DNA of 21,935 bases from a virus: positions 1 through 21,935 of the IMG/VR virus record IMGVR_UViG_3300007541_000262; one strand, given 5' to 3'. The position numbers were made by a program, and so were the translations under genes. The notes under the pieces are model-generated. The model was not told where the DNA came from. It saw nothing but the letters and a program-made list of their open reading frames with translations, and made no database searches. This document shows, in pieces, positions 2,845 to 21,685 of the stretch (positions within the stretch are counted from its first letter, which is position 1; every line of letters begins with the position of its first letter).

Positions 2845-4239
2845 CTATTGCGTCACACCGTTCAAAGTAATCACCCAACCACGTGCTTTCAAATTAGTAA
2901 CGGCAGTAGAGATGTTTGGCGTACCACTGCTAGCGTTGTAGCTAATAGTAATATTTTTTGAGGTTGACGGCGAATTACGCCCAGAAAAATCAATACTATT
3001 AAGGATGTTCTCAACCGATGTTGCCGTGAGGGAAGTACAGTTTGCCCAAGTATTTAAGAAGCAACCTGAAGATACTACTGTTGGCGCCCATGAGTCGAAG
3101 AAACCGGCTGGAAAACTGGTTAGGCTAGTGCAACCAGACCAAGCACTACTAAAACTTGTGCCCTTAGAAATATTTAACACAGGAAAACTGGTTAGGCCGC
3201 TGCAACCAGACCAAGTACTATCAAAACCTGAGCCACTAGAAGTATCCAGCGCAGGAAAACTGGTTAGGCTGGTGCAATTCTGCCAAGTAGCACTAAAATT
3301 TGAGCCACTAGAAGTATCCAGCGCAGGGAAACTGGTTAGGCCGCTGCAACCAGACCAAGCAGAACTAAGATTTGTGCCACTAGAAGTATCCAACACAGGA
3401 AAACTGGTTAGGCTGGTGCAATTCTGCCAAGCATTACTAAGATTTGTGCCACTAGAAGTATCCAACACAGGAAAACTGGTTAGGCTGGTGCAATTATACC
3501 AAGCAAGATTAAAACTTATGCCACTAGAAGTATCCAGCACAGGAAAACTGGTTAGGCCGGTGCAACCAGACCAAGCATAACTAAAAACTGTGCCACTAGA
3601 AGTATCCAGCACAGGAAAACTGGTTAGGCTGGTGCAATTCTGCCAAGCATAACTAAAATCTGTGACACCGGATAGATTCATTCCAGAGTCAATCGCGGTC
3701 AAGTTGACGCTACCCAACCAAGCTCTAGCCAGATTGGTCGCAAATGAAAAATTTCCAGGCGTCGCTCCTAGTGCTATAATCTTGTCTCCTTCTGCATTAT
3801 TATTATAATAAAACCGAAGTCCACGTGCATTATAAATTTGTATAGTATAGGTGCCTGGGGTACTATATGTATGATTAGTCAAAAGCGGAGATGAAGTACC
3901 TCTAGCTTCTAGTGTAGTAACTTCATAATTGCCATCCCCCCAATAAATTACAGCATCAACCGGACTTGGATTTGCTGTGATTAAACTAAATGTATTTACA
4001 CCAGGCGTTACTGCTTCGGTGTTGACAACTATAGAGAATTTACCATCATAATTGTAAACACTAGACAGGTCTCCTCCAGTGTATGCCAAATCTATAAGTG
4101 CTACAGATTCACCATTTTCTCCACCTCGCTTGTAGTGTATAGTTTGAACACCCTGAGCAGGTGGCGTAACAGGTGAAACTACTACGCTGTCGTGAGCAGG
4201 GATATTCAGGCCTCTAGTAGCTAAAGTGGTGCCACCCAT
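2845..4239 (-). CDS. BspA-type leucine-rich-repeat tail adhesin with PKD-like domain
   Basis: A 464-residue protein from ATG 4239-4237. An upstream TTG at 4257 is rejected because an AGGGGGG purine run lies just before the ATG. Residues 1-60 are the anchoring module shared with the gene at 2579-2773. Residues about 70-140 look PKD-like (IYWGDG, then HTYSTPGTYTIQI). Residues about 190-410 hold eight to nine 24-residue repeats of the form C(T/S)(S/G)LTSFPVLDTSSGT...AW(S/Q), which fits the BspA/DUF285 leucine-rich-repeat family, with one Cys per repeat forming a ladder. The tail (ATSVENILNSID ... LKARGWVITLNG) is the usual ending of such proteins. It is probably a receptor-binding fibre tip, exposed on the virion. 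It is the first gene after the capsid terminator, and its copy number may change by recombination. Confidence 0.85.
   Translation of the reverse strand: MGGTTLATRGLNIPAHDSVVVSPVTPPAQGVQTIHYKRGGENGESVALIDLAYTGGDLSSVYNYDGKFSIVVNTEAVTPGVNTFSLITANPSPVDAVIYWGDGNYEVTTLEARGTSSPLLTNHTYSTPGTYTIQIYNARGLRFYYNNNAEGDKIIALGATPGNFSFATNLARAWLGSVNLTAIDSGMNLSGVTDFSYAWQNCTSLTSFPVLDTSSGTVFSYAWSGCTGLTSFPVLDTSSGISFNLAWYNCTSLTSFPVLDTSSGTNLSNAWQNCTSLTSFPVLDTSSGTNLSSAWSGCSGLTSFPALDTSSGSNFSATWQNCTSLTSFPALDTSSGSGFDSTWSGCSGLTSFPVLNISKGTSFSSAWSGCTSLTSFPAGFFDSWAPTVVSSGCFLNTWANCTSLTATSVENILNSIDFSGRNSPSTSKNITISYNASSGTPNISTAVTNLKARGWVITLNGVTQ
3105..3665. repeat. 72-bp tandem repeats inside the LRR adhesin gene
   Basis: The block GGAAAACTGGTTAGG (plus strand) recurs every 72 bp, starting near 3110, 3182, 3254, 3326, 3398, 3470, 3542 and 3614. 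Each unit encodes 24 residues. Two unit types are mixed: one reads GCAACCAGACCAAG (encoding WSGC) and the other GCAATTCTGCCAAG (encoding WQNC). High DNA identity between units suggests recent amplification or gene conversion. Confidence 0.95.
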
Positions 4240-4271
4240 ATTGCCCCCCTGCGGCAACTTTTACTATTCTA
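4240..4271 (-). promoter_or_regulatory. Fibre-gene leader, copy 2: TAGAAT box and SD-in-loop hairpin
   Basis: Minus strand: TAGAAT (4271-4266), then the hairpin GTTGCC/GGCAAT (4258-4253 with 4245-4240) with loop GCAGGGG carrying the Shine-Dalgarno, then ATG. It is nearly identical to copy 1. Where the stems differ the pairs stay compatible (U-A versus U-G, and G-U versus G-C). It lies directly downstream of the capsid terminator, where a new start of transcription would be needed. Confidence 0.4.
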
Positions 4272-4281
4272 GGGTGCCAAT

Positions 4282-4304
4282 AAAAAGCCTCCCGAAGGAG
4301 GCTT
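4282..4304 (-). terminator. Intrinsic terminator after the major capsid gene
   Basis: On the minus strand an 8-bp stem AAGCCTCC/GGAGGCTT closes a UUCG tetraloop and is followed by a run of five Ts and TATT. It lies 22 nt past the capsid stop codon and separates capsid expression from the fibre cassette. Confidence 0.9.
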
Positions 4305-4325: not shown

Positions 4326-5234
4326 TCAGACAGAAGCGGTCGCGTCGACGTTAGTCAGGCGAGCGCAGGAACGCCCGTTGATCATCGCTAACCCGCAGAA
4401 CCACTCAACGCGAGTCACCAGCACGGGGGCATCAGTGGCTTCACCCAGGTCACGAACCTGAGGACCGCCGTTCTGGATGCCAGTCAGGTGATCATTGCCG
4501 AAGGACACGACATAGATCGACTGATCGGTAGGATCGGAATCCAGGATCGCCACGTTCTTATGGTCGCGATCAATCTCCAGCACAGGCAGACCACCGTAGG
4601 TCAGTTGCTGGTAGCCGAACTCGGTGCGCTCGATGTCGATCTGACCCGAGGCACGAGCAGAGGCGCTCAGGTGGCGACGAGCCGACTTGGACATCACCAG
4701 ATACTTGCGGCCACCCTGGGCGTCCACAGCATCAATGGCTTCATCGAGCTTGCCCAGATCCAGAGCAGCGGCGGAACCAGAGTTGGCGATGATCTGGGAG
4801 TGGTTACCAGCCTCGGCGGCAGGCAGACGAACACTCAGACCGTCGAACTCAGCAGCGGTACTGTTGCTGTCGCCGTTGATGAACAGGCTCTCGAAGGCCA
4901 GACGCATGGCGCGGACCTTGGACTGCACCTGATAGGCACGGGCCTGGGGGCCTTCCAGTTCAACGATGGCGCGATCCACCTTGATGTCGCCACCAAAGAG
5001 CTTCAGCGCTTCGCTGTACTGACGAACTTCAGCGTAGCTCTCGGTGTAGCCAGCGTTGAAGGAGCAGAAACCCACGTCACCGAGGCTCTCTTCACGCTTG
5101 AAGAACAGGCCAGAACCCTGCACTTCACGGAAGGGCATGGTGCTTAACAGAGGACCGGCGGAAAGCTCGGTAATGATAGCAATCTCTTGGGGATTGCGGC
5201 TATGCTTTTTAGCCTCAACAAGACTGAGACCCAT
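4326..5234 (-). CDS. Major capsid protein (HK97-fold type)
   Basis: A 302-residue protein, ATG at 5234-5232 with AGAGG 6 nt upstream. The sequence fits the siphovirus HK97-like capsid families: FFKREESLGDVGFCSFN (residues about 44-60), LFGGDIKVDRAIV (79-91), FINGD (118-122) followed by FDGL (130-133), a helix-rich middle (LDEAIDAVDAQGGRKYLVMS), and a beta-rich C-terminal part ending in a GLAMINGRSCARLTNV strand. No N-terminal delta domain is obvious, which agrees with a separate scaffold gene just upstream. Base composition is clearly richer in G+C than in neighbours (39 of 60 bases in 4921-4980 by hand count), as expected for codon use tuned to high expression. It is flanked by terminators on both sides and has a structured leader, so it is probably transcribed as its own unit. 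Confidence 0.9.
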   Translation of the reverse strand: MGLSLVEAKKHSRNPQEIAIITELSAGPLLSTMPFREVQGSGLFFKREESLGDVGFCSFNAGYTESYAEVRQYSEALKLFGGDIKVDRAIVELEGPQARAYQVQSKVRAMRLAFESLFINGDSNSTAAEFDGLSVRLPAAEAGNHSQIIANSGSAAALDLGKLDEAIDAVDAQGGRKYLVMSKSARRHLSASARASGQIDIERTEFGYQQLTYGGLPVLEIDRDHKNVAILDSDPTDQSIYVVSFGNDHLTGIQNGGPQVRDLGEATDAPVLVTRVEWFCGLAMINGRSCARLTNVDATASV

Positions 5235-5310
5235 AATAAACCTCTAAAGGGTAGACAAGAAAAGAACGGGTGATTTGCTTTTGATGGCATCTCGCCTAGG
5301 CCAAAAGCTC

Positions 5311-5357
5311 GACACCCTTCTAATCCTTGTCGTCTCGACTTCGGATATCAGGGTATC
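5311..5357 (-). promoter_or_regulatory. Structured 5' leader RNA of the capsid gene
   Basis: Read on the minus strand, three nested helices can be drawn: GAUACCC/GGGUGUC (5357-5351 with 5317-5311, one G-U pair), AUCC/GGAU (5346-5343 with 5326-5323) and GUCG/CGAC closing an AGA loop (5339-5336 with 5332-5329). Purine-rich internal loops (UGAU/UAGAA and GAA/AA) separate them. An outer pairing CUAGGC/GCCUAG (5369-5364 with 5301-5296) is also possible but would need a transcription start further upstream than the putative promoter gives. I do not recognise an Rfam family. The element lies about 77 nt before the capsid ATG. Confidence 0.4.
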
Positions 5358-5367
5358 TCCTCAGCCT

Positions 5368-5396
5368 AGTATGCCAATTTATTTTAAATGTTACAA
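5368..5396 (-). promoter_or_regulatory. Putative sigma-70-like promoter of the capsid gene
   Basis: Minus strand: TTGTAA (5396-5391), a 17-nt AT-rich spacer, then CATACT (5373-5368); each hexamer has four of six consensus matches. The -35 box lies in the T-run of the scaffold terminator, so termination and restart are back to back. The string TTGGCATACT is repeated with one change upstream of the tail-tube gene. Confidence 0.4.
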
Positions 5397-5422
5397 AAAA
5401 AAGAGCCTTAATTAGGCTCTTT
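5395..5422 (-). terminator. Intrinsic terminator after the scaffold gene
   Basis: On the minus strand a perfect 8-bp stem AAGAGCCT/AGGCTCTT with a 5-nt loop AATTA is followed by a run of eight Ts. It begins 8 nt past the scaffold stop codon and isolates the capsid gene from upstream transcription. Confidence 0.9.
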
Positions 5423-5429
5423 ACTGTTA

Positions 5430-6167
5430 TTACATGCCAAATGCACGTTCAAACATTGCTTCTGCGCTTAATTCACTAAAATCATCAGCAGTCATACCGT
5501 TTGCATCGGTACCACCAAAGCCGATGCCGGCGCCACTGCCAAGTTGACCACGGAAGAACGTCCCGTAGATCGGATGAGACTTAAAGGAGCTCAAGTATTC
5601 CTCGGGAGCAATACGCTTGCCGGTATCGGCATCAAGAATCGGATCACCATTGCTATCAATAACAGTGATCATACCATTTGCTTCAAGACGGAAATTTGCC
5701 CCAAGGCGATCCGCCAGAAGATCAAAGAAACTAATACCACCTTCGGCATCAGTCCGACCGCCAGCAGCAAAGAATACTTTTTCAAGTGCATAACGCTTAC
5801 GGACTTCTTTCAGTTCACTTTGATACTGTTCCGCTTTTTTGTTGGCCTCGGCCGCCTGGGCGCCATACTTCTCTTCAAGAAGTGACGTGCGCTCCTCTGC
5901 TGCCAGACGCTCGCGCTCAGCAATTGCAGCTTCTTCAAGAATACGCCGATGCTCTTCGGGGTTAATATCTTTGAAGCGCTCCAGTTGAGCAGTTTTTTCC
6001 TTGATCTCCTTTTCGTAAATTTTACGAGCTTCCCTCTCAGACTTTAAAGCCTTCAGTAGGTTCTGGACTTCATCCTCACTGTAGGCTTTGTTTTCGGTTG
6101 CCTCGGGAGCAGCAGTTGCTTGGCCGGCGCTCGTCTCAAGCGCCTGCATGTTTTCTTCGGTAGGCAT
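5430..6167 (-). CDS. Probable capsid scaffolding protein
   Basis: A 245-residue charged protein. After a loose N-terminus rich in A, T and E (1-30), residues about 30-140 form a long heptad-like coiled coil rich in E, K, R and A (LLKALKSEREARKIYEKEIK). A more compact region follows (FFAAGGRTDAEGGISFFDLL), then a Gly-rich linker and an acidic/aromatic tail (MTADDFSELSAEAMFERAFG). Coiled coil plus short C-terminal interaction tail, immediately before a capsid gene that lacks a delta domain, is the usual picture for a phage scaffold. No serine-protease motif is seen. The chosen ATG (6167) has no Shine-Dalgarno; the nearest good one belongs to an in-frame five-codon leader ORF at 6200-6183. The assignment rests on architecture and position. 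Confidence 0.7.
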   Translation of the reverse strand: MPTEENMQALETSAGQATAAPEATENKAYSEDEVQNLLKALKSEREARKIYEKEIKEKTAQLERFKDINPEEHRRILEEAAIAERERLAAEERTSLLEEKYGAQAAEANKKAEQYQSELKEVRKRYALEKVFFAAGGRTDAEGGISFFDLLADRLGANFRLEANGMITVIDSNGDPILDADTGKRIAPEEYLSSFKSHPIYGTFFRGQLGSGAGIGFGGTDANGMTADDFSELSAEAMFERAFGM

Positions 6168-21259: not shown

Positions 21260-21685
21260 ATGCCTCAATCTAATCCTTCGCCTTTGCTGACACAAAAGCA
21301 GGGGCTCGTTGAGTCGTACCATCAGTACCTGGCCGACATGGAATGCCTAAGCAGTGGTGAAGCAAAACGTCGTTGGCGTAAAGCAATTAAAGAAGCCTGG
21401 AATAATTGTTGTTGTTTTTGTGGTCAACCACCAATCTCGGATAAATCATTAACTATTGATCATATGCGGCCACGCAGTAAAGGTGGAGAAAATGTCTCCC
21501 GTAACTGCTTGCCCGCCTGCCTTGAACATAATCAATCCAAAGGCTCTGATGATTGGCAACCATGGTTTCGTGCTCAATCATTCTATGATCCAACTCGTGA
21601 GGCTCGTATCTTATTCTGGCTTGAACATTCGCGTTTACCCAGTCAAGATGAGCTTCAAATCGCTTTAAATCGCTTAAATGGTTAA
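21260..21685 (+). CDS. HNH endonuclease
   Basis: A 141-residue protein on the plus strand, opposite to all virion genes. ATG 21260 has AGG 6 nt upstream. It carries a zinc-binding C..C knuckle (C51, C54), the ββα-metal core with IDHMRPRSKGG (D67, H68), N82, and ACLEHNQSKG (C87, H90, N91, K94). The second Cys pair is C83/C87, a slightly unusual spacing. A C-terminal WFRAQSFYDPTREARILFWL segment matches a tail I recall from cyanobacterial and phage HNH proteins. It would nick or cut DNA with a metal ion. It could be a free-standing homing endonuclease or a packaging-related HNH protein. The stop codon overlaps that of the opposing gene within a GTTAAC palindrome. Confidence 0.88.
   Translation: MPQSNPSPLLTQKQGLVESYHQYLADMECLSSGEAKRRWRKAIKEAWNNCCCFCGQPPISDKSLTIDHMRPRSKGGENVSRNCLPACLEHNQSKGSDDWQPWFRAQSFYDPTREARILFWLEHSRLPSQDELQIALNRLNG

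Follow-up and report, generated by a model that had tools for sequence, protein, structure and literature searches.

Introduction

Post-transcriptional control of head genes is known in tailed phages, and the scaffold gene of P22 is autoregulated. The capsid gene of T7, gene 10, is expressed from its own promoter, with a 5'-terminal stem-loop in its leader and a terminator after the gene. The boxB hairpins of lambda and P22, which carry loops of the GNRNA type, are bound by the N protein. In the maturation-gene leader of MS2, the fold that is kinetically first to form gives way to a more stable one, which limits translation. To our knowledge, structured and covarying leaders on the structural genes of tailed dsDNA phages have been little described. 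The putL and putR elements of phage HK022 (~70 nt) consist of two adjacent stem-loops near a phage promoter (PMC9378689), and the structured RNA motifs manA, wcaG and PhotoRC-II of cyanophages are linked to downstream genes (PMC2864571).

Here we describe a leader RNA in front of the major capsid protein (MCP) gene of S-CBS2-like cyanosiphoviruses, which is real and conserved and apparently undescribed. It recalls the put, T7 gene 10, boxB and MS2 RNAs by resemblance alone, and membership in these classes is not claimed. In P22 the scaffold gene is the one controlled, whereas the cyanophage leader is located on the capsid gene and its protein partner is hypothetical. The manA, wcaG and PhotoRC-II motifs are associated with metabolic or photosystem genes, whereas the capsid leader has no gathering-level match. 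In Rfam 15, the window (the whole 21,935-nt, or 21.9-kb, IMG/VR virus record analysed here) and 12 related loci gave zero matches at the gathering threshold, the best permissive matches being far below it and at chance level, and an initial annotation of this DNA had likewise recognized no known family. Literature searches, with subscription papers outside their reach, found no account of a capsid leader RNA.

We read the leader as a two-state cis-regulatory element of a monocistronic MCP mRNA, probably held by a loop-binding protein, and assign this reading a probability of roughly 0.55. A conserved and apparently refoldable leader suggests a previously undescribed switch setting the amount of capsid protein, and the anatomy fits a regulatory leader of a gene whose protein is required in greater quantity than any other.

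The capsid transcription unit

The window is an S-CBS2-like cyanosiphovirus, with an MCP that shares 66% identity with that of Synechococcus phage S-CBS2 and 51% with that of cyanophage PSS2. The leader and the capsid gene are on the minus strand, in the following arrangement:

5430-6167, minus strand: scaffold protein gene (PHROG 206, head scaffolding protein), 5' of the leader
5395-5422, minus strand: intrinsic terminator closing the scaffold gene, AAAGAGCC-UAAUUA-GGCUCUUUUUUUU, in the same place in most relatives
5367-5377, minus strand: extended -10 promoter TTGGCATACTA
5241-5244, minus strand: Shine-Dalgarno-like GAGG, at -10 to -7 relative to the ATG at 5234
4326-5234, minus strand: MCP gene (PHROG 212, Pfam GP7)
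4280-4304, minus strand: intrinsic terminator ~21 nt past the capsid stop, AAGCCUCC-UUCG-GGAGGCUUUUU, found in most relatives

The upstream terminator sets the capsid transcription unit apart from the scaffold gene, and the capsid mRNA is a monocistronic unit between two predicted terminators. The order of terminator, promoter, leader, capsid gene and terminator is repeated in most relatives, in which a strong terminator also follows the capsid stop by ~14-38 nt. A clear Shine-Dalgarno sequence is missing from several relatives.

The promoter pattern T-N-GG-N-A-N-N-N-TA at 5377-5367, represented by the motif TNGGNANNNTA, is kept in 55 of 55 leaders. It stands about 130-137 nt before the ATG across leaders, of which 48 of 51 have a purine 7 nt downstream of the -10 box. 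Because of the conserved promoter and this purine, we infer that transcription starts at ~5361, ~4 nt before hairpin 1, which would give a leader of about 127 nt. The initial annotation had rightly taken the leader to be 5' untranslated; its length of ~140 nt shortens to ~127 nt when counted from this start. It had also proposed, as alternatives, an outer helix CUAGGC/GCCUAG and a promoter overlapping that helix. The motif at 5377-5367 bears out the promoter. The outer helix is conserved in the nearest relatives alone, and was rejected because it lacks wider conservation, a transcript starting at ~5361 would leave out its 5' arm and its 3' arm falls within hairpin 2.

In the degenerate form TNGGHAHHHTA, the promoter motif has five copies in the window (2814, 4280, 5377, 8500 and 20658), all on the minus strand and each 20-145 nt before the start of a minus-strand ORF. 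Five copies against 3.6 expected in the window is not significant by count alone; their placement hints at a late promoter common to these ORFs.

Two hairpins with covarying stems

The first part of the leader contains two successive hairpins:

5311-5357, minus strand: hairpin 1, with stems P1 (5357-5351/5317-5311), P2 (5346-5343/5326-5323) and P3 (5339-5337/5331-5329)
5336-5332, minus strand: pentaloop GAGAC of hairpin 1, closing P3
5277-5308, minus strand: hairpin 2, with stems P4 (5308-5302/5283-5277) and P5 (5296-5294/5288-5286)
5293-5289, minus strand: pentaloop GAGAU of hairpin 2, closing P5

The three nested helices of hairpin 1 had already been drawn on the minus strand, at the same place, and folding agrees with them: the strand from 5370 to 5294 folds at -34.8 kcal/mol (z = -5.2), and 0 of 200 shuffles were equally stable. 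The earlier drawing missed hairpin 2, which has the same loop, and a downstream strand that competes with P1 and is the best clue to mechanism.

A total of 80 capsid relatives were fetched, which provided ~55 related leaders, and 49 distinct sequences were aligned with the help of a covariance model built from 11 close leaders. Comparison across these 49 leaders, the check proposed at the outset, upheld both conservation and covariation. In this alignment, whose fit to the covariance model biases it towards the modelled structure, 99.7% of cells are paired in P1 and 99.3% in P3, with two P1 pairs changed on both sides and compensation at 3 of 3 pairs in P3. Pairing amounts to 90% of cells in P4 and 97% in P5, with both-side changes at 7 of 7 modelled pairs across these two stems. 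When the partner was slid by 1-3 columns as a control, overall pairing fell to 32-48%. The conservation expected of the nested helices therefore holds for P1 and P3 (>99%), and P2 is variable, being paired in 45% of cells over the whole set; in the closest clade, P2 reads by eye as AUCC/GGAU, UACC/GGUA or GUCC/GGAU. The two hairpins are also found in single-sequence folds of many divergent leaders.

The GNGAN pentaloops

Both hairpins end in a G-N-G-A-N pentaloop, whose G, G and A never change among the aligned sequences (49 of 49 for each hairpin). Loop positions 2 and 5 vary, as do the stems, and position 5 can be T, C, G or A. The likeness to boxB consists of a GNRA-like pentaloop on a short variable stem. 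In contrast to the GNRNA of boxB, the capsid leader has G, G and A fixed at positions 1, 3 and 4 with position 5 free, its hairpins are paired and there is no late-operon antitermination context. When the leader is compared with metabolite riboswitches, which have a conserved ligand-binding core, its conservation is seen to sit in the two identical hairpin loops and in the GGGU/ACCC strands described below, not in one complex core.

GNGAN hairpin pairs reach further than the remaining similarity between leaders, to PSS2-type phages and to prophages of diverse cyanobacteria. Prophage-like loci with such pairs were found in Iningainema, Nostoc, Leptolyngbya, a contig assigned to Thermosynechococcus and other cyanobacterial genomes. 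Nine distant loci were picked as cyanobacterial relatives before counting, and at least two GNGAN hairpins were detected in the 150 nt before the MCP gene in 8 of the 9, compared with 0.07 expected from shuffles. None of the other 63 of 64 comparable loop classes exceeded 1 of 9 distant loci. The motif was first noticed in the Thermosynechococcus-assigned locus (L079, equal to L093) and in PSS2; among the remaining six, which check the pattern independently, five were positive. Among the other capsid relatives, just 1 of 69 has at least two GNGAN hairpins before the capsid gene. The Thermosynechococcus-assigned locus carries three successive GCGAU-loop hairpins before the capsid gene (2885-2975), not two.

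GNGAN accounts for 3 of 537 five-base-loop hairpins in one host genome sample and 8 of 428 in another, near the 1/64 expectation. No comparable GNGAN pair precedes the capsid genes of P-SSP7 and Syn5, podoviruses with picocyanobacterial hosts, or of Microcystis phage Mwe-JY26. Because the hosts are not enriched and the podovirus capsid leaders are without GNGAN, a putative reader of the loop is more likely to belong to this phage lineage than to be a general host protein.

Some cyanobacterial genomes contain tandem intergenic GGC-GNGAY-GCC hairpin repeats, whereas the phage leaders use varied stems. One such genome (G158, loci L190, L202 and L205) has tandem intergenic hairpins (GGGCGAGACGCCC) whose pentaloops, GAGAC or GGGAC, are similar to the phage loop.

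A downstream strand predicted to compete with hairpin 1

The last part of the leader opens with (C)ACC(C), followed by a pyrimidine-rich tract, and includes the following element:

5254-5272, minus strand: third strand CACCCGUUCUUUUCUUGUC, with complementarity to the 3' half of hairpin 1 (5331-5313)

Pairing of 5272-5254 with 5331-5313 would form an alternative helix, P1', that encloses hairpin 2. The GGGU/ACCC core of P1' is paired in 96.7% of cells and is nearly invariant, and covariation is uninformative there because the core hardly varies. In a duplex test that ignored register, no difference between own and foreign arms was left once the CACCC core was excluded. With the register fixed, 41 of 47 leaders show a better fit of the segment next to the core to its own hairpin arm than to foreign arms, and 40 of 47 a better fit than shuffles. 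Grouping the 47 leaders by eye gave 18 clades, of which ~17 favour their own arm; the p-values ignore relatedness.

Predicted stability favours P1' over P1 in 15-16 of 18 clades. The folding is a thermodynamic prediction at 37 C and describes equilibrium, not kinetics; within it, growing transcripts that reach the end of hairpin 2 contain hairpin 1 in 29 of 30 leaders, and those that extend through the AUG contain it in just 2 of 30, P1' then being favoured in ~27 of 30. The leaders without a flip to P1' are L026, L071 and L022, the model giving neither fold the upper hand in L022 and L071. P1 is lost in 90% of cases with the native downstream part, as opposed to 35% with a shuffled one; the loss is 61-63% when the core alone is kept and 30% when the core is removed.

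The leader thus holds two mutually exclusive conserved pairings, one of which (P1) covaries, while the extension of the other (P1') co-evolves and is predicted to win at full length. These observations give good comparative support to a two-state switch.

Exposure of the Shine-Dalgarno sequence shows no consistent difference between the two states: 4 of 13 clades have it more accessible in the P1 state (p 0.27-0.31). Sequestering of the Shine-Dalgarno sequence in one state looked attractive in L070, L010 and L016, and was set aside as inconsistent over clades. By construction, P1' hides the pyrimidine-rich tract before the start codon in every clade.

One leader per genome

The 11-leader covariance model was run over 412 kb and recovered nearly all of the other leaders where they were expected, with no second site. 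Model searches of 37 whole records yielded one credible match per genome, always the capsid leader, and a broader model (R2) likewise gave one credible match at the capsid leader in each of 17 whole records. In PSS2 the leader is the sole match in 107 kb, and a weak one (E 0.26); in its relative L090 the leader match has an E value of 0.004. Isolated phages with the leader include S-CBS2, S-CRES2, S-CRES3 and PSS2, for which strains of Synechococcus or Prochlorococcus are given as hosts.

IMG/VR-wide scans with two clade patterns, which took no account of the capsid gene, returned 50 stretches, mostly capsid contigs already among the fetched relatives. Of the others among these 50, 17 were examined: 14 had this capsid gene just downstream, one was cut by the stored stretch and two, L229 and L231, are unrelated. 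L229 and L231, which are the same sequence, were considered as non-capsid copies and rejected as chance-like matches with no MCP. No credible non-capsid copy of the leader was found in whole records.

Chromosomal homologues of the MCP in Cyanobium/Synechococcus (L098-L155), with several copies per genome, carry a different conserved element (GGYAAYRG ... GACGT ... GGGGCC-GGCCCC) located 42-51 nt before the ATG, within the last 75 nt.

Mechanism and alternative explanations

In the mechanism that we propose, hairpin 1 would form first during transcription. Once made, the third strand would pair with the 3' half of hairpin 1 and enclose hairpin 2, and this refolding to P1' would bury the pyrimidine-rich tract ahead of the start codon. 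A putative protein binding both loops, most simply the capsid or scaffold protein, or another phage factor, may hold the hairpin-1 state, and the leader would thereby time or limit capsid synthesis. Hairpin 1 is somewhat more likely to be the ON state, because the pyrimidine-rich tract is exposed in it. Tuning of translation by the leader is plausible.

Autoregulation by a head protein (capsid or scaffold) is a plausible candidate, and the simplest protein hypothesis because the leader is linked to head genes and both head proteins are common to the phages and most of the prophages. A more specific version, in which a head protein reads the twin GNGAN hairpins, traps the co-transcriptional fold and couples capsid synthesis to assembly, is possible and put forward tentatively. 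If true, it would represent an old regulatory module of cyanobacterial siphoviruses and prophages, and its loop code is not known to have a counterpart among other RNA operators. Were the twin loops an operator and the strand exchange a switch, the phage would meter its most abundant protein post-transcriptionally through a short RNA operator, possibly involving a new RNA-binding activity of a head protein.

T7 gene 10 also has a capsid leader with a promoter, a 5' hairpin and a terminator, but it has neither twin GNGAN hairpins nor a competing strand, its sequence is unrelated and a different polymerase is involved. In a T7 gene 10-like role with no switching, a stable 5' structure would shield the capsid mRNA from RNase E-type decay and aid translation, in keeping with a hairpin 1 that begins a few bases from the inferred 5' end and with an isolated single-gene capsid transcript that has a terminator behind it. 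However, mere stability demands neither the invariant GNGAN loops nor the co-evolving downstream strand, and we regard this role as rather unlikely. A protein-free folding timer, in which the mRNA would be translated in a burst while still in the early hairpin-1 fold and would then slowly refold to P1', would make direct use of the sequential flip predicted during elongation in ~27 of 30 leaders. The predicted replacement of an early fold by a more stable one is also the likeness to the MS2 leader, although MS2 is an RNA phage with a different fold and no conserved loop motif, and Shine-Dalgarno effects are inconsistent in the capsid leaders. That inconsistency counts against a timer, which also leaves unexplained the invariant loops and their persistence in prophages without the third strand; we consider it distinctly improbable.

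The two stem-loops just downstream of the promoter, arranged as in putL (PMC9378689), and the GNRA-like pentaloops that recall boxB would suit an antiterminator that acts on RNA polymerase in the manner of the HK022 put RNA or a nut site. HK022 put acts on early operons over kilobases, whereas the capsid leader belongs to a single-gene unit that in most relatives meets a strong terminator soon after the capsid stop. Because of the flanking terminators and the single site per genome, antitermination is very unlikely. The existence of GGC-GNGAY-GCC intergenic hairpin repeats in some cyanobacterial genomes might suggest a chance structure or a functionless host-type repeat; that explanation is hardly tenable against the covariation, the failure of the slid controls, the fixed position of the leader before the MCP gene and the absence of a general GNGAN enrichment in the two host genome samples.

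Other features of the window

The neighbouring minus-strand ORFs at 2579-2791 and 2845-4257 have a common N-terminal stretch, GxMGGTTLATRGLNIPAHD, which in the ORF at 2845-4257 is followed by leucine-rich LTSFPVLDTSSG repeats. On the plus strand, opposite to the structural genes, the ORF at 21260-21685 contains an HNH-nuclease-like zinc motif (CCFCGQPP ... DHMRPRSKGG).
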